From assembly GCF_008389435.1 (NCBI RefSeq), contig NZ_VUYS01000001.1, forward strand, positions 1-64,000: DNA of 64,000 nt, read 5' to 3'. Positions within the stretch are counted from its first letter, which is position 1; each line of letters opens with the position of its first letter. Both the position numbers and the translations under genes were made by a program. Under the pieces are notes generated by a model. The model made no database searches and was not told the DNA's origin. It was given only the letters and a program-made list of their open reading frames with translations. Origin of the DNA: Candidatus Nitrosocosmicus agrestis. GTDB lineage: Archaea > Thermoproteota > Nitrososphaeria > Nitrososphaerales > Nitrososphaeraceae. This document shows, piece by piece, positions 6,591 to 42,273 of this stretch.

Positions 6591-6646
6591 GAGTATCATT
6601 TAGTTTGGACGCGTGGGGATTAAGGTCCTAGTGGTAGCAGGGTTAG
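6591..6646 (+). repeat. Dispersed repeat, good copy (type 1 tail)
   Basis: GAGTATCATTTAGTTTGGAC, then GCGTGGGGATTAAGGTCC, TAGTGGTAGCAGGGTTAG. Head, core and the AAG-TCC...GGTAG-AGGGTT tail are all present. Confidence 0.85.
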
Positions 6647-28513: not shown

Positions 28514-30541
28514 TTAATCTTCGGTATTCTCTTCACCATTTGATTCGTCGTTACTGCCGCCATCATCTTCACCATTTGATTCTTCAGAGTCAGATCCTTC
28601 ATCATTATTGTCGTTAGAGTCATCATTTTCATTTTCATTGTTTGGATTTTCTTCGCTGGTGGAACTTTGATCCTCATTTTCACTTGTGGTGTCGCTACTT
28701 TCTTCCTCTAGTGGTGGATCTGTCCAGTCATCTATATCGTCATTGTCTCCACTGCTACTTGTACAAGTGTGATCATGACTTGCTTGTTCTGCAGTGCATG
28801 GATTACTGTCGTCATTGTTATTTTCATTGTCGTTACTTTCATCATTATTTGTTCGATCATCACCTCTTTGGTCGGTTTCACAGCCTATGCCATCGTTATC
28901 TCCATCAAGGTTATTGGGGTCATTACTTCCAACCGCAATATTTGTCTCCCCGATGTCACTGCAGTTTAGATCGTTGGCTCGCGTATCATTATTGTTGTCA
29001 TTATTATTAGTTTCACAGCCTATGCCATCGTTATCTCCATCAAGGTTATTGGGGTCATTACTTCCAACCGCAATATTTGTCTCCCCGATGTCACTGCAGT
29101 TTAGATCGTTGGCTCGCGTATCATTATTGTTGTCATTATTATTAGTTTCACAGCCTATGCCATCGTTATCTCTATCAAAGCCGTTTGGATCATTATTTCC
29201 AACCGTCATATTAGATTCTTGGATATCGGTACAGTCTAAGTCACCACCGTTATTGTTTAGATCTTCAGCTTCACAGCCTATGCCATCGTTATCTCCATCA
29301 AAGCCGTTTGGATCATTATTTCCTACAAAGAAGTTTCTTTCATCAATGTCCTCACAGTCTAAGTCACCACCGTTATTGTTTAGATCTTCAGCTTCACAGC
29401 CTATGCCATCGTTATCTCCATCAAAGCCGTTTGGATCATTATTTCCTACAAAGAAGTTTCTTTCATCAATGTCCTCACAGTCTAAGTCACCACCGTTATT
29501 GTTTAGATCTTCAGCTTCACAGCCTATGCCATCGTTATCTCCATCAAAGCCGTTTGGATCATTATTTCCTACAAAGAAGTTTCTTTCATCAATGTCCTCA
29601 CAGTCTAAGTCACCACCACCGCTACCGTCATTACTTGATCCAGAGTTATTATTGTCATTATCATTATCATTAGATCCTTGATTATTATTTATCAAAGGAA
29701 GTGGAGCAGATAATCCACCAGTAATAAATTGTTCAGTTGTAGTTCCACCTCCATTGTTAAATGTAAACTTTGGATTAAAGGGAGGACTCATAGAACTCTG
29801 TACTGAGTCTATATTAATTGAATAGAAAGCAGCTTGAGATTTTGTTTTATTATCAATTATAGTAATATCAAATGGCGCCATTTGATTGTTAGGAAGATTA
29901 GCTACATTCAGTCCAAAGCTTTGAGTTCCAACTATCCCCAAACTAGAATTATCATAATATGTTGTAGCCAGATTCAAAAGCTGTTCTGGAAATTGTCCTT
30001 TGTTTATTATGTTACCTACTATATGAGGATTGCCAACATTATCTACAAATGAGTTACTGCCGTTTAAAACCAAGGTAGATGGTTTTTCAGAAGTAGCAGA
30101 TTGAGATGTAGTTGAGAACTCCATAAAGTTAAATTTTCCTAATATCAGTTGCGGGTTTTGTATCACTATATCAAAAGGAGATAATTCGCCTGACCTTAAA
30201 GTTCCAATTGAAGAGAAGGCAGTAAAATTGCCAACAACACTATCATCACTACTGTTTGTATCATACAGAATAGCTGTTACTGTAATATTGTTTTGAGGCT
30301 GAATCGAGGTATTATTTACTTCACCTATGATATGAAAATTGCCAAGGTCATCGGTATAAGTTGAGGTACTTATAAGCTTGATTATAGTGTTATTATTACC
30401 AGAAAGTTGAGCTTGGACAGAAGGTATAGTCAAAGAGTCAACTTCCAGATTAGTAAAAGTAGACAAAGACATTGGAGGCAGAGACATCATCAAAATTACA
30501 ATGATTGAAAATAATTGTGTCACTTTAGAAGCTGTACGCAA
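28514..30541 (-). CDS. Secreted protein with FxLYD-like domains and six Excalibur calcium-binding repeats
   Basis: 675 residues. Signal peptide ~1-45. Two FxLYD-like domains: ~60-135 (TDDLGNFHIIGEVNNTSIQP) and ~160-245 (VDNVGNPHIVGNIINKGQFP). Six Excalibur-type units occupy ~310-556, each with a DLDC/DLNC start and D-x-D-N-D-G-I-G-C-E loop. The first three are 41-residue near-identical copies (123-base DNA repeat), the fourth is a variant, and the last two form a second near-identical pair. The C-terminal ~115 residues are an acidic Asp/Glu/Asn/Ser tail. Excalibur loops bind calcium in other secreted proteins, so a Ca-dependent surface role is likely. Confidence 0.88.
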   Translation of the reverse strand: MRTASKVTQLFSIIVILMMSLPPMSLSTFTNLEVDSLTIPSVQAQLSGNNNTIIKLISTSTYTDDLGNFHIIGEVNNTSIQPQNNITVTAILYDTNSSDDSVVGNFTAFSSIGTLRSGELSPFDIVIQNPQLILGKFNFMEFSTTSQSATSEKPSTLVLNGSNSFVDNVGNPHIVGNIINKGQFPEQLLNLATTYYDNSSLGIVGTQSFGLNVANLPNNQMAPFDITIIDNKTKSQAAFYSINIDSVQSSMSPPFNPKFTFNNGGGTTTEQFITGGLSAPLPLINNNQGSNDNDNDNNNSGSSNDGSGGGDLDCEDIDERNFFVGNNDPNGFDGDNDGIGCEAEDLNNNGGDLDCEDIDERNFFVGNNDPNGFDGDNDGIGCEAEDLNNNGGDLDCEDIDERNFFVGNNDPNGFDGDNDGIGCEAEDLNNNGGDLDCTDIQESNMTVGNNDPNGFDRDNDGIGCETNNNDNNNDTRANDLNCSDIGETNIAVGSNDPNNLDGDNDGIGCETNNNDNNNDTRANDLNCSDIGETNIAVGSNDPNNLDGDNDGIGCETDQRGDDRTNNDESNDNENNNDDSNPCTAEQASHDHTCTSSSGDNDDIDDWTDPPLEEESSDTTSENEDQSSTSEENPNNENENDDSNDNNDEGSDSEESNGEDDGGSNDESNGEENTED
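28890..29620. repeat. Internal tandem DNA repeats of the Excalibur gene
   Basis: Three 123-base units (about 29250-29620) are almost identical, for example CACAGCCTATGCCATCGTTA followed by TCTCCATCAAAGCCGTTTGG. A second pair of near-identical units of about 138 bases lies at about 28880-29150. Recent expansion within the coding frame; the copy number is likely variable. Confidence 0.85.
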
Positions 30542-34011: not shown

Positions 34012-34065
34012 ACAGTAACACTAAGTTTGGGCGCGTGGGGATACGATTCAAGGTTGAACAGTACC
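34012..34065 (+). repeat. Dispersed repeat, last good copy (type 2 tail)
   Basis: ACAGTAACACTAAGTTTGGG, CGCGTGGGGATACGATTCAA, GGTTGAACAGTACC. Matches the complement of the tRNA-Lys 3' end at 42184-42201 in 16 of 18 bases (GGGCGCGTGGGGATACGA versus GGGCCCGTGGGGATTCGA). Confidence 0.88.
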
Positions 34066-34192: not shown

Positions 34193-34269
34193 TATCCTCA
34201 GGTAGTTAAGTTAGGCATAACACCCCCCTTGCAAAGGGGAAGACGAGGGTTCAAATCCCTCCCTGATAT
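34193..34269 (+). tRNA. Degenerate tRNA-like gene, Ala anticodon TGC
   Basis: D-arm GTTA/TAAC with a GG-containing loop, anticodon loop CTTGCAA (TGC), T-arm GAGGG-TTCAAAT-CCCTC, acceptor 3' strand CCTGATA. The 5' acceptor strand reads TATCCTCAGG, which pairs perfectly only if three bases (CCT or CTC) are looped out; one anticodon-stem pair (31-39) is also C-A, and the G3-U70 identity pair of tRNA-Ala is absent. Probably a pseudo-tRNA, perhaps damaged by integration. Functional status unknown. Confidence 0.5.
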
Positions 34270-34580: not shown

Positions 34581-35345
34581 TTGTCTTCTAAAGACTCCTC
34601 AATATCATTTAAAATAGATAAACCATCACTTTCTGATTTTGTATTGAAGACAAGTCATTCTCCCGTTTTTCCAATTTTTCATTTAAGAATAGTACCAGTC
34701 GAAGAAGCAGGCGATTCTGAGTTAGAATTAAAAGTCAATAAGAAGATTTTTAATTTACTTAAAGATCTTTTTTTTATTGACAAATTCACACTTTATTTAC
34801 CATTAAATGAAGGCTCCCTTGGGATATGGCAACCGGATATGGCAATTGGATTAGAAATTCTTACTAGATTAGGAATATTAAGGAACATCAATGAATGGAT
34901 AAGCGACTCTCGAATTGCTCTGGTGAATATATTAGACAATCAAAAAGTAGAATCTAAATTAAGTAATGATACTGCATTTAAGAACTCTGAAGAAATTTTG
35001 AATGCTATGAGTATATTACCAGACATATCGTCAAATAAGTTACTATCAATAGTTGTAAAAGACGTTATATCTGCAAAACATCTCGATCCTCAAACAATAA
35101 TTTATAGGTTGGCTATGGCTATATATCATACAAGGAATGCGACAGGTGAATCAATCTCAAAAATGATTGACAACCCTCTGGATTTGTATCTTAGACTATT
35201 AGAAAGTGATTACTATACAAAGAATTCTGAACCGTTTAAACAAATTGATAAACTTCCAGTCGATCTTAGGGGATTAGTCACGAAGGTAATAGCAGTATTT
35301 GCAATAGCCGCGTATTTCTATCATAAGGAAATCAGGGAATTGTAA
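34581..35345 (+). CDS. Unknown protein, first gene of a compact three-gene set
   Basis: 254 residues, TTG start. Soluble, mostly helical: NKKIFNLLKDLFFIDKFTLY, EGSLGIWQPDMAIGLEILTR, LSIVVKDVISAKHLDPQTII, IDKLPVDLRGLVTKVIAVFA. The final hydrophobic stretch (AVFAIAAYFYHKEIREL) could be a helix packing against a partner or a weak membrane anchor. Stop and start overlap by one base with the next gene, so translation is coupled. No family recognised. Confidence 0.75.
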   Translation: MSSKDSSISFKIDKPSLSDFVLKTSHSPVFPIFHLRIVPVEEAGDSELELKVNKKIFNLLKDLFFIDKFTLYLPLNEGSLGIWQPDMAIGLEILTRLGILRNINEWISDSRIALVNILDNQKVESKLSNDTAFKNSEEILNAMSILPDISSNKLLSIVVKDVISAKHLDPQTIIYRLAMAIYHTRNATGESISKMIDNPLDLYLRLLESDYYTKNSEPFKQIDKLPVDLRGLVTKVIAVFAIAAYFYHKEIREL

Positions 35346-35968
35346 TGGATGCACGAAATACTGATAACGATCAATTCATGAACGTATGGCGTTCAAAGCA
35401 TTATGTTGGAACCAACTCAGGTATGATAACAACCACTTCAAATTATAATAATATGGAAAATTCACAAAATAGTAAGAGGGAGTTCATAGCGTTCTCAACT
35501 AACAATACTCAAGTACCAAATTCAATAGGTATTTCTACTACGCAAGAGTGGAGAATTGTTCCTTCTTTGATGGGATTAACAGAGGCTGTTTTTATGCTCA
35601 ATGATATTGCACAAGCACAGTACAGAGAGTTGCACAGCATTCGAGGACTATTAGAATCATTATTGCAAAAAGACAAGGATAATTTAAGCAACAATTCTAA
35701 TGTTCTAGAGGAAATCGAGTCCAAAATTATTGAACTGTTTAAACAAATTGATTGTCTACAAAGTGTACTAGTCGAAAATAGGGATGGCCTATTATTAACT
35801 ACGTTTTTACATACAGATGAAGATCGAGTAAGAATTTCTGATAAGATTATCGATAAATTAATTGAATTGGAGGACAATTTTCCAAATATTAATTTTGAAC
35901 CAAGTATATTGCATGTAAATGATAAGTCATTCGATAAATTTTCGGGAAAAAGAATAACTTTCCGGTGA
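35345..35968 (+). CDS. Unknown coiled protein, second gene of the three-gene set
   Basis: 207 residues. The first ~75 residues are polar and low complexity (Asn/Ser/Thr). Then a helical hairpin: SLMGLTEAVFMLNDIAQAQY, RELHSIRGLLESLLQKDKDN, VLEEIESKIIELFKQIDCLQ. The C-terminal part (SVLVENRDGLLLTTFLHTDE, RVRISDKIIDKLIELEDNFP) has the strand-helix feel of a small sensing domain. Its first codon overlaps the stop of 34581 and its end overlaps the next start by four bases (GTGA). Likely bridging subunit; no family recognised. Confidence 0.72.
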   Translation: MDARNTDNDQFMNVWRSKHYVGTNSGMITTTSNYNNMENSQNSKREFIAFSTNNTQVPNSIGISTTQEWRIVPSLMGLTEAVFMLNDIAQAQYRELHSIRGLLESLLQKDKDNLSNNSNVLEEIESKIIELFKQIDCLQSVLVENRDGLLLTTFLHTDEDRVRISDKIIDKLIELEDNFPNINFEPSILHVNDKSFDKFSGKRITFR

Positions 35969-36336
35969 AAGCATTAATGTCAAGTAGTTGGCATATTAAG
36001 AAAAGTAATCATAATATCGACGCTTGTAACTACATGAATGTTAAAACCCCTCAATATATGGATTGGGAAGTGGTAAGTATTTTTTATTCGTCATTACATT
36101 TGATTAATGCATATTTTGAGAAATTTAATCCTCCTGTCCCATCTAAACATAATTTTCGAAACGAACGCGTAAGAAGAGATCCCAATTTAACAAAAATTAG
36201 AGCACCATATCTAAGTTTGTACACTGTATCTAGATCCGTTAGATATGATAGAGACGTCAGTAATGACAGCGAGGTAAAGGCCGCTATGAGAGATTACAAT
36301 TTAATAAAAAATCATCTCAAGAATTACGGCATTTAG
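35965..36336 (+). CDS. HEPN-like small protein, third gene of the three-gene set
   Basis: 123 residues, GTG start. The helix DWEVVSIFYSSLHLINAYFE, the following KHNFRNERVRRD, and a helix with YLSLYTVSRSVRYDRDV fit the helical architecture of HEPN domains, many of which are RNases or nucleotide-binding partners in toxin-antitoxin and defence systems. A clear catalytic R-x4-6-H is not present in the usual position, so the activity is uncertain. Overlaps the preceding gene by four bases; convergent with 36376. Confidence 0.6.
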   Translation: MKALMSSSWHIKKSNHNIDACNYMNVKTPQYMDWEVVSIFYSSLHLINAYFEKFNPPVPSKHNFRNERVRRDPNLTKIRAPYLSLYTVSRSVRYDRDVSNDSEVKAAMRDYNLIKNHLKNYGI

Positions 36337-36375: not shown

Positions 36376-36909
36376 TCAACTCTTCATTATGGATTCAATT
36401 AGTTCTTCTCCTAATTCCTTTTTATAATCTTCAATTTCCAAAATTTGTATGCTATCGATAAATTCTTTGACAACTTGTTCATCCTCTATTCTTCCATTTT
36501 CTTTGCAATAGGGACAATCTGGAACACATTGGTGCCCGGTACAGTATTTCGCATTTGCTCTATCTCCCGAATAATCTAGTTTCTCCATTTCTATGTAAGA
36601 TGGATGGAAATAGTACATTTCTTTCCTTTGTCTATATCGTTCTTCTGGAGTATAGTTATTCAAACAATGTGATAAATGATATTCAAATTCTTCAGAGGTA
36701 TATTCTTGTCCATCAAGATTACCTAAAGTTGGATTTCCTCCTTGTCTTGTATATTTCTCCATTCTAATCGCATGGTATAATCCAAACCTTTGCGTCTTTT
36801 CATTTTCATCTTTGTTTAAATTATTATCTTCAATCTCGTTAGCCTTTTCTTCTACTTTCTTAATTTTCTTGGATAGATCATCAAGCGTTTTCTTTTTAAT
36901 TATTCTCAA
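36376..36909 (-). CDS. Unknown protein with a Cys/His cluster, coupled to an HTH gene
   Basis: 177 residues. A charged coiled-coil N-terminus (KKTLDDLSKKIKKVEEKANE), then an aromatic/acidic middle (EFEYHLSHCLNNYTPEERYR) and a compact metal-binding-like cluster near residues 122-135 (CTGHQCVPDCPYC), followed by an acidic end. Four cysteines and a histidine could bind one zinc. Overlaps the HTH gene by 14 bases and is on the same strand, so the two are co-expressed. Element-type gene; no family recognised. Confidence 0.72.
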   Translation of the reverse strand: MRIIKKKTLDDLSKKIKKVEEKANEIEDNNLNKDENEKTQRFGLYHAIRMEKYTRQGGNPTLGNLDGQEYTSEEFEYHLSHCLNNYTPEERYRQRKEMYYFHPSYIEMEKLDYSGDRANAKYCTGHQCVPDCPYCKENGRIEDEQVVKEFIDSIQILEIEDYKKELGEELIESIMKS

Positions 36910-37321
36910 CCCTCTCTAACCTTTCCTCTAGTTCCTTTAGATAGATAAGCGAAGGTCCCTCCGCTATGAGTTTAAACAAAGACTCATTACATTCTTTCGC
37001 CAATTTCAGAGCATTTAACTTGTTCATCCATGTTACCTCATTATCAGCATCTTTGTTGTTGTAAATATTCCAGCATTCATTCAATACTGTTTTTATACCC
37101 TCAATGGATGTTTGATACATAAATGGTAAACTTTCCTTGACCATGGAATTTAGATTGTTACTTGATTCTCTAGACAGATATTGTATATCTCTGCTGATAG
37201 TGGCAGGGTCTACTCCTAATTCAGTTGCAATCTGATATCCTTTAAGCCCTTTTGTTAGTAATACAAGTACTCTTTCCCTTCTGTATGATATTGTTTTATT
37301 ATACGAACATGAAAGAGTCAT
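36896..37321 (-). CDS. Helix-turn-helix protein, terminase-small-subunit or regulator type
   Basis: 141 residues. The N-terminal HTH is clear: RRERVLVLLTKGLKGYQIAT, ELGVDPATISRDIQYLSRES, the pattern of sigma-70 region 4 / insertion-element HTH domains. The rest is helical with NEVTWMNKLNALKLAKECNE and ends in a coiled coil (LKELEERLERVENN). Phage terminase small subunits and plasmid regulators both look like this. Start at 37321. Transcribed with 36376. Confidence 0.8.
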   Translation of the reverse strand: MTLSCSYNKTISYRRERVLVLLTKGLKGYQIATELGVDPATISRDIQYLSRESSNNLNSMVKESLPFMYQTSIEGIKTVLNECWNIYNNKDADNEVTWMNKLNALKLAKECNESLFKLIAEGPSLIYLKELEERLERVENN

Positions 37322-37421
37322 TTTAATTGCGGATATTGCATATATCTAATCTCAAAATAATAAAGATATTGCATGGAAATAATAATCATTAGCATAGATG
37401 GCAATTAAGAAGTTATAAAAG

Positions 37422-39344
37422 TCAAGCCTCAAAATCTTTTCCATCTACTTTTTTGTGAAGATCAGATAACTGAATATGACGAACTATTTCCTCCCGATGG
37501 ATATTCTTAATATTAGGATGCTCTACACAAAAAAAGAACGGTTTCTTATAAGGTATTTCATAGTCATCTGCTGCTTGACCTTGACTAGTCTCTGAATTTT
37601 CTTTTCTTTTATGACTATTAAGGTAGATAAGGTAATGAGATTCTCGCTCTTTTTCAGAATTATGTAATGCTGATTTTAACACTTTTAACGGTTCTAACAC
37701 TTTATCAGAGTCCTCATTGGTTTTTTTATCAAAATTATTAGGTATAGAATTAGTATTTTCTAGATTACTTTGTTTGCTCTCTTTGAGATTTAAGGATATC
37801 TGATCCATTTTCGTTCTCTGGTTTTTTGTCTGTATGTCGCTCTTGCTCTCTATATGTTTCCAAAAAGTGTTAATTGTGTTAATTGTGTTAGTTTTGGACT
37901 TGTTCAATATTTCTATCTGTTTTATGGGTAAATAGTTGTCCTCAAGTCTTTTTAATCCTATGTTATCAAATGCCAAGATCCTATGTTTTCCGTCGTGTTC
38001 TCTTTTAGCCCCAAACTTGTCCTCGCATATTCTTGAAATCAATGTTTTAGACACAGTACCAAATTCATTTGTTTGATAACTATGAGGCTTTGAAGGGATG
38101 GCATTCCCTGGAAGGGTACATACAATTTCCCATATGTCTTCGTTTGTGAGCCTGTATCCATTATTTTCTTTAGCCAAATCCTTCACAATTGAATAGATAA
38201 AAGAATCAAGCGAGTTTAATTTTCTATTTCTTTTATCTGCTATGAACTTGGATAATGAATCGAGAATATCTTTTAGTACATTAGTATCTTGAAATAACCT
38301 TATCAGAGGCTTGCAGAGTTGTTTTTCTCTATTCTTAATGGAGAGATTTAGATCAGGAATAGGTTCATCATAATGCATTACCCTGAAAATAAGTAATAGT
38401 TTTCTTAAATCCTCTAGTTCTCTTATTAATTTCTTGTATTTTTTATCTCCCGCATCGTTCACAACTTCAAGGATATCGAATAGAGGGTTTCCTGCCGTGC
38501 ACTGAATTGGAAAAATCCTTTCAACGAAACCCTTCGCTTTATAAAATCCTGGTTGTCTTTCAGAAGTGTATGCTTTAAAACTGTAGGTGTTAAACCTTTT
38601 TTGAGGCTTTGATTTATTAACTCCGCTAGCCGAAGAATCATACATCCTGGTGACTTTTGATCCTCTTGTATATCCTGATTTGTAAATTTTCATTTTTTCT
38701 GGTTGTTCTTCTATGTCATCGATTTCATCTTCAAGAATTATGCCTTGCCCTTCCTCTTCTTGACCTAAGAAATTATAGATGTTAGCCGGACTGATGTTTA
38801 CATCTTTGAGTGGCCTATATGCTAATTGCTCCAGTACTGATAGCGCGTTACTTTTACCAGTATTGTTATCACCTACAAAGAAAAGATAGTGTGTCATCCC
38901 CAATTTATCTTGAAAATAAGTGAAAATTGTATCAGCAGCACAGAGGTCTAGCGTCTTTTTGTCAGTATCAAAATATTTTTTCCAGATATTCTTTGTTTTC
39001 ACAAATAATGAGTCCAGAGTTTCTTTTGATGCTCTTTTGATATAGAAGTTTATTTCATCGATGGAAGAAAAACTATAGTCTTTGCTAAGATATTCAGTCT
39101 TATCTGGAGGTAAGATTAACTGTCTATCTAAATCAATATTGTCTCTCAGAATGGCTTTACCATTACTTATTTGTAAGAACAATGGTAGATTTCCACCGAT
39201 CAAAATGGATTCCGCAAGAGAAATATCCTTGCTGTACTTATAAAAGATGAACTTTCTTTTGCCGACAGATTGATCTTCAGTATTATTATCTGCTTCTTTG
39301 TTCTGGGAACTATTAGTTGGTTTACGAGACAATTTGAACATCAC
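37422..39344 (-). CDS. P-loop ATPase, replication/primase-helicase-like, of an integrated element
   Basis: 640 residues. Walker A FVGDNNTGKSNALSVLEQLA near residue 180, Walker B GIILEDEIDDIEE near 220, an arginine-rich sensor region ERQPGFYKAKGFVERIFPIQ near 280, then a helical domain and a C-terminal wHTH-like stretch (SLDSFIYSIVKDLAKENNGY, RLTNEDIWEIVCTLPGNAIP). This layout matches superfamily 3-like or DUF3987/primase-helicase ATPases of plasmids and viruses that load at replication origins. The last 150 residues are polar and weakly structured. It is the main candidate for the replication protein of the element. Confidence 0.8.
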   Translation of the reverse strand: MMFKLSRKPTNSSQNKEADNNTEDQSVGKRKFIFYKYSKDISLAESILIGGNLPLFLQISNGKAILRDNIDLDRQLILPPDKTEYLSKDYSFSSIDEINFYIKRASKETLDSLFVKTKNIWKKYFDTDKKTLDLCAADTIFTYFQDKLGMTHYLFFVGDNNTGKSNALSVLEQLAYRPLKDVNISPANIYNFLGQEEEGQGIILEDEIDDIEEQPEKMKIYKSGYTRGSKVTRMYDSSASGVNKSKPQKRFNTYSFKAYTSERQPGFYKAKGFVERIFPIQCTAGNPLFDILEVVNDAGDKKYKKLIRELEDLRKLLLIFRVMHYDEPIPDLNLSIKNREKQLCKPLIRLFQDTNVLKDILDSLSKFIADKRNRKLNSLDSFIYSIVKDLAKENNGYRLTNEDIWEIVCTLPGNAIPSKPHSYQTNEFGTVSKTLISRICEDKFGAKREHDGKHRILAFDNIGLKRLEDNYLPIKQIEILNKSKTNTINTINTFWKHIESKSDIQTKNQRTKMDQISLNLKESKQSNLENTNSIPNNFDKKTNEDSDKVLEPLKVLKSALHNSEKERESHYLIYLNSHKRKENSETSQGQAADDYEIPYKKPFFFCVEHPNIKNIHREEIVRHIQLSDLHKKVDGKDFEA

Positions 39345-39430
39345 GAACTAAATTGAAAATGTGAAAAGAAATGATATGTTAGAGAAACAATTCTCCCAAT
39401 ATTGGATCTTTAATCATAATGTGTGTCAAC

Positions 39431-39721
39431 TTACTGCTTTACTTTAATAGTGTATTCTAACAAGTCAATCTTGTATTCTTCAGCAATTATTTTCTTGAGG
39501 ATGGTTTGCTGTTCATCTTCGGAAAACCGGCCTAGAATACTTACGATTGATTGGCCACTTTCAGAATTTCCTACATGTATTGTAATAATAGATAATCCTC
39601 TGTCAATCTGGTCCGTTATGCAATTTAAAGTTCTTTTTTTAGTCCAGATATAACGAGTTGAATCGTCAATTACGTTGACTAGCAGATTCTTCAGTCGTTG
39701 AATATCGCTATTTTTCATCAT
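39431..39721 (-). CDS. Small unknown protein of the element
   Basis: 96 residues, soluble. KNSDIQRLKNLLVNVIDDST then strands TLNCITDQIDRGLSIITIHV, GQSIVSILGRFSEDEQQTIL and a final LLEYTIKVKQ. Acidic, alternating helix and strand. No family recognised. The gene lies 19 bases downstream of the AbrB-like gene on the same strand, so the two are co-transcribed; the P-loop ATPase gene follows on the same strand after an 86-base gap. Confidence 0.65.
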   Translation of the reverse strand: MMKNSDIQRLKNLLVNVIDDSTRYIWTKKRTLNCITDQIDRGLSIITIHVGNSESGQSIVSILGRFSEDEQQTILKKIIAEEYKIDLLEYTIKVKQ

Positions 39722-39739
39722 TTTTCTACACCTCTATTT

Positions 39740-39937
39740 TTATGCTTTTTCTACGATAATCTTGTTCTCTTGCTGATAGACTTTGACAAAATCACCTTTT
39801 CCAATACCCAGGTTGATTGCGAACAATTTTGGTAGTACAAATGAAAAAGAATGCTCACCTACCAGACCTTGGATTTTGCGATATTCTGTCTTGTTTTCGA
39901 TTGGTTCGTTATTTTCTGAAATTTCCATATTTTCCAT
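39740..39937 (-). CDS. AbrB/MazE-like swapped-hairpin DNA-binding protein
   Basis: 65 residues from the ATG at 39937, chosen because the longer frame to 40030 adds a Cys/Trp/Ile-rich leader that lies opposite the divergent gene. YRKIQGLVGEHSFSFVLPKL, AINLGIGKGDFVKVYQQENK, IIVEKA has the beta-alpha-beta pattern with IGKGDFVKV typical of SpoVT/AbrB domains. It is divergent from a wHTH regulator across a palindrome, so a regulatory or antitoxin role is likely. Confidence 0.78.
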   Translation of the reverse strand: MENMEISENNEPIENKTEYRKIQGLVGEHSFSFVLPKLFAINLGIGKGDFVKVYQQENKIIVEKA

Positions 39938-39958
39938 TGAATAAAGGATATATATATT

Positions 39959-39977
39959 ATGCCATATTTTGTGGCAT
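39959..39977. promoter_or_regulatory. Palindromic operator between the AbrB-like and wHTH genes
   Basis: ATGCCA-TATTTTG-TGGCAT is an inverted repeat; another ATGCCACA half-site lies at 39988. A TATATATATT stretch (39948-39958) just left could be the TATA box of the plus-strand gene. A dimeric regulator bound here would control both genes. Confidence 0.65.
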
Positions 39978-40859
39978 ATGATTGAAGATGCCACAAAAGG
40001 CGGGAAAGATCTAATCCAACTAAAAAACAAAAGGCTAATGAATGAAATTATTAAAGCAGTGATGAAGAATGGAAAAATCGGGTTATCTCAGAAAGAATTA
40101 TCGGAAATGGTTAACATGAATAGAGAAACCTTAAGAAGATATATGAATACTCTAATGAATCATGGCTTAATAAAGAGATATAGTGAGAAGGGGAAATACT
40201 ATATTAATCCCCTCTACCTCGGAAGGTCATATATTGGTGGAATAGCGTTCAGTTCACATTTCTTAAATGAGATACTGGGAGAGGACAATATTGCTCCCAA
40301 ATTCAAAAGAAGAATGATTTCAACTGACTACTACTCAAATGATCTAAAAGAAAACAATACCTTTGGAATAATGTTTGACGGTACAGAAGAGAACATATCA
40401 AAAAAAGTCTTGGATAATATTTTTAAAGATGAGGTTAATAAACTTCAAAAATCTATATTTGAATTTGCTAATCAAATTGGTGCATATCATATTTTTGTGT
40501 ACTTAGTAACACTGGAGAAATACCACGTTGACAAAAACATTTCAGAGAAACTAACCCCAGAGGACATAGAATGGCTCCAGAATGCGTTATCGTCGTTTAT
40601 TATCGACTCGTATTATAAATTTCGAGACAAGGTATCAAATTATGAATTAAACGAGGATCAAAAAAATAAGATTAGTCAATATATCAAGGACAATAAATTA
40701 CAAACTACTAAATTGGAAAAGATAATTCATGCCGAGATGTCCTTGGCTTCACTATATCCTATAATATACACAATTCTCCAACAATTTGACATTAAAATAC
40801 AAGATGACAACATGATCATGAAAAACGATCTAATTGACTACGCAGGAAAAATTGAATGA
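39978..40859 (+). CDS. Winged-helix transcriptional regulator with large C-terminal domain
   Basis: 293 residues from the ATG at 39978 (an in-frame TTG at 39969 lies inside the operator). The wHTH is clear at residues ~14-68: LMNEIIKAVMKNGKIGLSQK, ELSEMVNMNRETLRRYMNTL, MNHGLIKRYSEKGKYYINP. The ~220-residue remainder (FGIMFDGTEENISKKVLDNI, FANQIGAYHIFVYLVTLEKY) is helical and unassigned; it may sense a ligand. No Shine-Dalgarno: probably leaderless. The start lies directly on the palindrome, consistent with autoregulation. Confidence 0.82.
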   Translation: MIEDATKGGKDLIQLKNKRLMNEIIKAVMKNGKIGLSQKELSEMVNMNRETLRRYMNTLMNHGLIKRYSEKGKYYINPLYLGRSYIGGIAFSSHFLNEILGEDNIAPKFKRRMISTDYYSNDLKENNTFGIMFDGTEENISKKVLDNIFKDEVNKLQKSIFEFANQIGAYHIFVYLVTLEKYHVDKNISEKLTPEDIEWLQNALSSFIIDSYYKFRDKVSNYELNEDQKNKISQYIKDNKLQTTKLEKIIHAEMSLASLYPIIYTILQQFDIKIQDDNMIMKNDLIDYAGKIE

Positions 40860-40865
40860 AAATAA

Positions 40866-42125
40866 CTATGGTTTCTCCTCTATTCTTTGTATTCTGTCCA
40901 ATACTATTCTGAGTTGATCTGAAAGTAAAGATATCGCTTCATTGTTCATTTGATCTTGCTCCTTTAGCAATTTGATTTCGTTTTCCTTTTCTTGTAATTT
41001 TCCATTTATGATGTAATTACTATTTTGATTTACAACTTCAAGATCCTGTAGTTTCTTAGTTAATTGGCGACTGTCAGAGTAAAACGTAAGAACATCTGTC
41101 GCCTTCAAATAATCCTTTAAGACATCTTTTTCCAAGGGTTTGTAATAACTCTTCGATATCCCTAAATCATGTCCAAGCAAGATTTCAACGTTTGCTGGTT
41201 TCATAAAAGGTTCACAATTGGTTTTGAAATATTTCCTAAAACCGTGTAAGGCCTTGAATTCATGACGCTTGTCACCTCTTTCTAGTACCGGTCTGACATT
41301 CTGTTGAAATAATCCCTTGCAGACTAGGCTCTTTATTCCACTGCTCTTTAGTTTTATGGGATTTTGTGCCAATCCTGTTTTCGATCCATATCTCATATTT
41401 GTTGTCTTCCAAAGGTTTCGCATCAACCAACTTTCTCCAGTTATCTTTTCGCCATATGATTCTCTATATGTCATCCAATCCTTCAATGATTGATAGGCTT
41501 CTACGGTAATGAAAGAATAGTATTGCTCATTTTCACCTGGATATACAATGATCTTTGCAGCAATCACTTCAGAATTTTTTTCTTCATCCATAATTGGAAT
41601 AACGTGTTTCCATCTAAGATAATCCCATGCACCTAACCTTATCCCAGATGATACCATTGTCAATACGATTGGCTTAATTCTTCTATCAGGATATTCCAAT
41701 AACTTTTTTATTTCATCTTTAGTAGGCACTCTATCTTCTGAAGCATGTCTTCCCTTTGGAATACCCCTAGTTACTAATCGCCAGTTAATGACAATGTCAT
41801 TCATATCACAAAACAATTTTATTGGTTTATAATAGTTAGGAATGGTTGATTGAGATATTTCTCCTCTTTTGGCCCGCTCATTTTGGAAGATGAAATAGTT
41901 TAACAAAGCATTTTGAAAAGTCTTTGGGTCTTGATTTATGAATTCATAGAACTGATTAGCCTTTTCTTCGATAGTTGATCCTTGCAGTTTCAAATAATCA
42001 AGAAAAACCTCCATTCGTTTTGGATACTGTCTTTTTGTTTCTGGGGCCTTTAGTGCATAAATAAACCTAAAATATGGAGAATCCATCATGATTGGTCCAT
42101 TAGTGGTATGCTCAAATGATTGCAA
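40866..42125 (-). CDS. Tyrosine recombinase / archaeal integrase
   Basis: 419 residues. The N-terminal SAM-like DNA-binding domain comes first (YALKAPETKRQYPKRMEVFL). The catalytic domain follows: SSGIRLGAWDYLRWKHV (first Arg), EFKALHGFRKYFKTNCEPF (H-x-x-R), EILLGHDLGISKSYYKPLE (His and the nucleophile Tyr), with a coiled-coil tail (LQEKENEIKLLKEQDQ). It begins 58 bases from the 3' end of tRNA-Lys and points away from it, as in elements that integrate in tRNA genes. The gene is intact, so it is of the type that is not split on integration. Confidence 0.93.
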   Translation of the reverse strand: MQSFEHTTNGPIMMDSPYFRFIYALKAPETKRQYPKRMEVFLDYLKLQGSTIEEKANQFYEFINQDPKTFQNALLNYFIFQNERAKRGEISQSTIPNYYKPIKLFCDMNDIVINWRLVTRGIPKGRHASEDRVPTKDEIKKLLEYPDRRIKPIVLTMVSSGIRLGAWDYLRWKHVIPIMDEEKNSEVIAAKIIVYPGENEQYYSFITVEAYQSLKDWMTYRESYGEKITGESWLMRNLWKTTNMRYGSKTGLAQNPIKLKSSGIKSLVCKGLFQQNVRPVLERGDKRHEFKALHGFRKYFKTNCEPFMKPANVEILLGHDLGISKSYYKPLEKDVLKDYLKATDVLTFYSDSRQLTKKLQDLEVVNQNSNYIINGKLQEKENEIKLLKEQDQMNNEAISLLSDQLRIVLDRIQRIEEKP

Positions 42126-42182: not shown

Positions 42183-42273
42183 CGGGCCCGTGGGGATTCG
42201 AACCCCAGACAGCCGGATTTCTTTCTTTTTTAAGTTAAAAGTCCGGTACTCTACCTGGCTGAGCTACGGGCCC
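42183..42273 (-). tRNA. trnK: tRNA-Lys (TTT) with a 17-base intron
   Basis: Acceptor GGGCCCG/CGGGCCC, D-arm GCTC-AGCCAGGTA-GAGT, anticodon stem CCGGA/TCCGG with loop CTTTTAA, T-arm TGGGG-TTCGAAT-CCCCA, discriminator G at 42183. An intron of 17 bases (ACTTAAAAAAGAAAGAA) sits after position 37, the canonical archaeal site. Its 3' end faces the integrase and is the probable attachment site. Confidence 0.95.

Follow-up and report, generated by a model that had tools for sequence, protein, structure and literature searches.

The window (the whole stretch of 64,000 nucleotides that was analysed), judged archaeal from the genes it contains, carries on its forward strand a compact set of three genes, which lies between a tRNA gene and the integrase-like gene of a probable element. 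The features discussed below are as follows.

34196-34269, + strand: tRNA-Cys (gca) that may be damaged, 311 bases upstream of gene 1 (ARAGORN and Rfam, 50 bits)
34581-35345, + strand: gene 1 (P0001, 254 residues, TTG start), the variable first gene (open reading frame list)
35345-35968, + strand: gene 2 (P0002, 207 residues; profile 19.6 bits, AlphaFold2)
35567-35740, + strand: predicted long helix of gene 2, residues 75-132 (AlphaFold2)
35756-35959, + strand: predicted beta-beta-alpha-beta-beta domain of gene 2, residues 138-205 (AlphaFold2, family alignment)
35965-36336, + strand: gene 3 (P0003, 123 residues, GTG start), predicted HEPN fold (profile 86.3 bits, AlphaFold2, VIA-align)
36241-36246, + strand: R93-Y94 of gene 3, near-invariant, with no histidine at R+5 to R+7
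40866-42125, - strand: probable tyrosine integrase of the element (PHROG integrase, E 4.8e-4)
42183-42273, - strand: tRNA gene with a probable intron, beside the integrase (Rfam tRNA, 57.8 bits)

According to the open reading frame list, genes 1 and 2 share 1 base and genes 2 and 3 share 4 bases, all on the same strand; the three overlapping frames of 254, 207 and 123 residues claimed in the preliminary description are exact in both coordinates and overlaps. Its placing of all three proteins in unknown families holds as well, since Pfam, PHROGs, PADLOC and NCBIfam gave no noteworthy match to any of them. PADLOC-DB 2.0.0 matched none of the three window proteins at E <= 10 and none of ten relatives at E <= 0.1. 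Profiles from which they were left out give gene 2 19.6 bits and gene 3 86.3 bits, while 1000 shuffled controls per gene reach at most 6.3 and 11.3 bits, respectively. Because these homology scores exceed the shuffles, both genes are taken as coding. Gene 1 is without a homologue, and its reality thus rests on its length and on the base it shares with gene 2. The set of three overlapping genes is confirmed as real. Searched against 70 genomes of the window's family, the three window proteins match only themselves, one chance match apart.

Gene 3 is, judging by its modelled structure, a HEPN-fold protein. The AlphaFold2 model, obtained with a 12-sequence alignment, consists of five helices (pLDDT 94.3, pTM 0.88). 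VIA-align matches it to the HEPN structure 2hsb over 118 residues (Z 16.2, 2.5 A) and to the sacsin HEPN over 119 residues (Z 13.4, 2.9 A), and its top ranks are all HEPN structures. Foldseek also ranks HEPN structures first, but the best E-value is only 0.08, weak evidence taken by itself. The model, the Foldseek ranks and the VIA-align comparison place within HEPN a protein first described as HEPN-like. At the sequence level, a Pfam search gave no match between window gene 3 and the PF05168 HEPN profile, which is matched by 3 of 14 family members at E <= 0.1; the relative in Thermus phage Tsatsa meets the PF05168 cut-off (22.5 vs 22 bits). Profiles of gene 3 relatives matched no HEPN in a sequence search of the PDB. 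The 86.3 bits of gene 3 (E 1.4e-25) were obtained with a profile of 25 relatives from which it had been left out; these relatives were gathered starting from the window protein and their recruitment is non-independent, yet the score gap is large.

The window set is, from sequence comparison, a divergent member of a sparse putative HEPN operon family present in bacteria and archaea, genes 2 and 3 having homologues across phyla. An initial genome scan that used only gene 3 gave no match, and a match to gene 3 in G003 (E 0.003, 23%, one stop) was judged to be chance once its context had been read. Of 398 phylum genomes, 3, the window's own included, were matched by a three-sequence gene 3 profile, as were nine loci in public genome records. 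Larger profiles were run phylum by phylum and, with the seed genome counted each time, found members in 4 of 297 genomes for L017 (titled Angelobacter), 8 of 301 for L012 (titled Anaerolineae), 1 of 10 for L013 (titled Planctomycetales) and 10 of 95 for L016 (titled Rokuibacteriota). A search of phage proteins with gene 3 gave weak matches, of which the best is a "HEPN domain protein" of Tsatsa (E 0.5); a phage search with gene 1 gave none. Viral scans with gene 3, gene 2 and queries A8 and A9 were without a match, while query A6 led to two loci and A7 to one of those two again. No plasmid match was obtained for gene 3, gene 1, the Tsatsa protein or the L017 protein, and Foldseek against predicted viral structures gave nothing significant. 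The counts exclude L019 (three proteins identical to L005), L044 (contig shared with L021), places that were found again (L022-L031, L045-L047) and chance matches (L002, L057, L058). No description of this family was found in the libraries and literature searched; subscription papers are thinly covered there, and so one may exist.

HEPN proteins are common prokaryotic toxins and immune effectors, and those lacking the RNase motif are little understood. The preliminary description remarked that R-x4-6-H was not obvious in the third protein, and the motif is indeed missing: it occurs nowhere in the window protein, nor at R93 in any of the 34 members that have this residue. R93 itself is kept in 34 of 35 aligned members and Y94 in 35 of 35 (the residue alignment leaves out L035 and L056, both among the 37 places considered for gene 2). 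R93 is probably the counterpart of the Rx4-6H arginine. The family further conserves H10 (30/32), N17 (31/32), W34 (33/33), F40 (33/34), Y41 (34/34), H45 (32/34) and Y82 (33/35), as well as H62, found in 29 of 35 members with a tyrosine in the remaining six. The window protein keeps all of these positions, with serine replacing alanine at position 14 as the one exception in the conserved set. The near-invariant polar residues H10, N17, H45, Y82, R93 and Y94 suggest a retained site, as read from the alignment. For comparison, the accessible part of a 2013 HEPN survey describes some PF05168 proteins with D in place of the motif histidine and another conserved histidine elsewhere (PMC3710099).

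The product of gene 2 had been called coiled. Its AlphaFold2 model (mean pLDDT 69), in which the N-terminus is disordered, does contain a long helix, but the C-terminal third is a predicted alpha/beta domain conserved as the partner of gene 3, so that "coiled" alone does not describe the protein. A profile of 24 relatives that excludes it gives window gene 2 19.6 bits (E 4.8e-5), and the best other frame in the window 4.6 bits. In the relatives, the gene immediately 5' of the HEPN gene encodes an alpha/beta domain close to the C-terminus. With leave-one-out profiles at E < 0.001, for which near relatives of the place tested stayed in the training set (L008 and L009 excepted), 31 of 37 places, including the window, have the gene 2 domain in a sense frame upstream of gene 3; the best control scores were 1.2 bits downstream and 3.9 bits antisense. 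Three of the six non-scoring places have an open reading frame at this position (L005, L013, L032), while in L014 the contig starts just upstream, in L035 no intact gene is seen and in L052 there is no intact frame. The gap between genes 2 and 3 is at most 18 nt, or the genes overlap, in 25 of 26 cases, some of the starts being set by the open reading frame rule only.

For gene 2, Foldseek ranks first an MNT antitoxin from a HEPN-MNT complex, at a non-significant E of 0.017. VIA-align gives Z 8.6 and 8.4 with the MNT chains 8xeh_E and 8xeo_A (3.8 A; 89 and 86 residues), and ribosomal S3, zinc-transporter and MafI chains tie with MNT (Z up to 9.4, 2.7 A, 86 residues). The gene 2 profile also matches a phage baseplate chain in the PDB (E 0.0023). 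BPS1, ER and MscS_porin were discarded as identities, their Pfam matches being weak and under the cut-off. The MNT motif GSx10DxD, conserved in both HEPN/MNT classes according to the available text of PMC7641770, is present in 0 of 34 gene 2 proteins, a set that excludes L014, L035 and L052 here and in the coupling counts that follow. A derivation of gene 2 from MNT, as a catalytically dead antitoxin, is attractive but unproven.

Of 34 loci, 21 have a same-strand open reading frame of at least 80 residues coupled to gene 2 (three of them, L037, L041 and L054, doubtful), and the other 13 lack one. When 20 gene 1 candidates were compared all-against-all, they fell into recurrent unrelated families and singletons, the window's own being a singleton. 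The recurrent families comprise a DUF6941-type protein (L016, L049-L052), a TIGR04255-like protein (L012, L018, L034, of which L034 alone matches the model, under its cut-off), a protein of 82-87 residues (L033, L048, L053) and one of 134 residues (L008, L009). In the 70 family genomes window gene 1 finds itself only. Two matches among the 398 phylum genomes (E 0.007 and 0.0099) are regarded as chance, because one spans 34 residues with a stop and the other sits in a 990-residue frame. A by-eye likeness of the gene 1 N-terminus to DUF3467 was dropped, since neither the Pfam search nor a search of the genome for PF11950 gave a match. The conserved unit is genes 2 and 3, with gene 1 exchanged between unrelated families, and so the "homologous triplet" holds for architecture only. 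Related operons do occur in other genomes. A swappable first gene on a fixed core is often seen in sensor-effector systems.

The surroundings of the set point to a mobile context. The tRNA-Cys upstream, earlier called damaged, is accepted by both ARAGORN and Rfam; its two outermost acceptor-stem positions are unpaired by eye, which makes damage possible and falls short of proof. On the far side, the integrase-like gene, 4.5 kb from the set, and the tRNA at 42183-42273 bound the other end of the probable element. The anticodon of this second tRNA reads TTT by eye, and the gene seems to hold an intron. The intervening block at 36376-40030, on the opposite strand, likely consists of element genes, and includes an HTH protein (36896-37321), a 640-residue protein (37422-39344) with a Walker-A-like stretch seen by eye and only a weak AAA_21 match, and a weak MazE-like match (39740-40030). 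Within the window, the end of the tRNA at 42183-42273 has no second copy apart from a core common with a dispersed repeat, and neither the left end of the element nor another attachment site was found. A copy at 34029 belongs to that repeat and therefore was not called an attachment site. The repeat has the core GGGCGCGTGGGGA with conserved flanks, and starts at 6607, 8671, 10367, 11765, 14209, 21057, 25086, 28303 and 34029. Six copies are exact and three have one mismatch, all on the + strand (0.01 expected by chance); all fall outside the compared open reading frames, with no match at the Rfam gathering cut-off. The tRNA end at 42184 has 12 of the 13 core bases. Elsewhere, the product of 28514-30541, 675 residues long and predicted to be exported, contains near-identical tandem repeats of about 33 residues (DLDCEDIDERNFFVGNNDPNGFDGDNDGIGCE type).

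Integrases also accompany some of the relatives. The Tsatsa set is flanked by LexA-like and integrase genes, and a relative in a Microcystis phage is likewise next to an integrase. A Thermus composti contig (L005/L019) encodes three small proteins the same as those of Tsatsa, followed by an integrase, and so a related prophage resides there. Longer contexts were read for five of ten relatives and their neighbours are anecdotal: an AAA_15 ATPase and an integrase at L060 (L060:2366-3766, L060:10490-11272), and an AbiEi-like protein with an NTP_transf_8 nucleotidyltransferase at L064 (L064:4557-6441).

In this context, we put forward that the locus is a divergent archaeal operon composed of an inhibitor (gene 2), a HEPN protein (gene 3) and an exchangeable gene 1, a mechanism to which, taken as a whole, we give a probability of about one half. 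Gene 2, translated just ahead of gene 3, would bind the gene 3 product and keep the HEPN protein inactive. By analogy with MNT in HEPN/MNT pairs it would act as an antitoxin, in this case by binding and not by nucleotidylation, because the MNT catalytic motif is absent from gene 2. Gene 1 would provide the input, either setting specificity or sensing a virus, a competing element or stress as the trigger. The freed HEPN protein might then use its conserved H, N, Y and R residues to act on RNA or a different ligand, and this activity would halt growth or the invader. Complex formation, inhibition, sensing, toxicity and defence are what we infer for these proteins. A toxin-antitoxin or defence role is plausible because gene order, mobile context and the prediction made for Tsatsa all fit. 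Several observations speak against the proposal: the MNT match of gene 2 is non-significant and shared with unrelated folds, gene 3 lacks the RNase motif, 13 of 34 loci are without a coupled gene 1 and three others are doubtful, PADLOC gave no match, and six of 37 places lack a scoring gene 2. We would extend the proposal only tentatively to a three-part class of HEPN immunity or toxin-antitoxin systems in archaea and bacteria, with a sensor, a dead MNT-derived inhibitor and an effector with a non-canonical site (H10/N17/H45/H62/Y82/R93).

The lack of Rx4-6H throughout the gene 3 family would suit a regulatory or superinfection-exclusion module whose HEPN protein is non-toxic and only binds RNA, nucleotides or a partner; in some families motif-less HEPNs are treated as probable non-catalytic binders, according to the accessible part of PMC3710099, and two phage relatives adjoin an integrase. 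The near-invariant polar set (H10, N17, H45, Y82, R93, Y94) nevertheless suggests a kept site, and several relatives' contigs show no mobile gene in the stretch read, so that we consider such a module rather unlikely, if the most serious of the alternatives. A standard HEPN/MNT (type VII) pair preceded by an additional gene, in which MNT nucleotidylates a HEPN tyrosine, would account for the gene order, a HEPN fold near PF05168, a fully conserved tyrosine (Y94, 35/35) and the best Foldseek match of gene 2; moreover, RX4H is likewise missing from the HEPN protein of class II HEPN/MNT pairs, as stated in the available part of PMC7641770. Yet GSx10DxD, though conserved in both classes in that same text (PMC7641770), is found in 0 of 34 gene 2 proteins, and the likeness of gene 2 to the MNT fold is tied with unrelated folds, which leaves a type VII pair improbable. 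Least probable of all is a decayed or non-functional remnant at the element border: the 70 family genomes hold no relative beyond a chance match and the gene 2 score is low (19.6 bits), but the three frames are intact and tightly overlapping, and gene 3 keeps its conserved positions save for S in place of A at 14.

With its conserved partner, its variable input gene and a defined set of conserved residues to mutate, the family makes it directly testable whether motif-less HEPNs are enzymes or binders. It would also supply a candidate defence module for the archaeal lineage of the window.

Among known systems, the HEPN/MNT (HepT/MntA, type VII) modules are alike in having a small alpha/beta gene 5' of a HEPN-fold gene (31/37 in the window family), an order also given for MNT-HEPN pairs in the accessible part of PMC3710099; in fold comparisons gene 3 is matched best by HEPN structures, and Foldseek ranks an MNT first for gene 2. 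In contrast, the window family is without GSx10DxD in gene 2 (0/34) and without Rx4-6H in gene 3 (0/34), and has an exchangeable extra gene in front. In the Tsatsa region, the gene 3 homologue is similarly the last of several small genes and lies beside an integrase, whereas by profile its first two genes fall outside the window's gene 1 and gene 2 families. The available text of the Tsatsa paper names the HEPN gene, calls the functions of the other proteins unknown and proposes, as a prediction, that the region encodes a defence system whose effector is the HEPN protein (PMC11437467). Finally, the motif-less group HEPN-T (Cpin_6617), listed in the part of the 2013 survey that is accessible, resembles the gene 3 family in being HEPN without Rx4-6H and mostly bacterial, but differs, on a comparison made by description alone, in its reported fusions to ferredoxin domains (PMC3710099).
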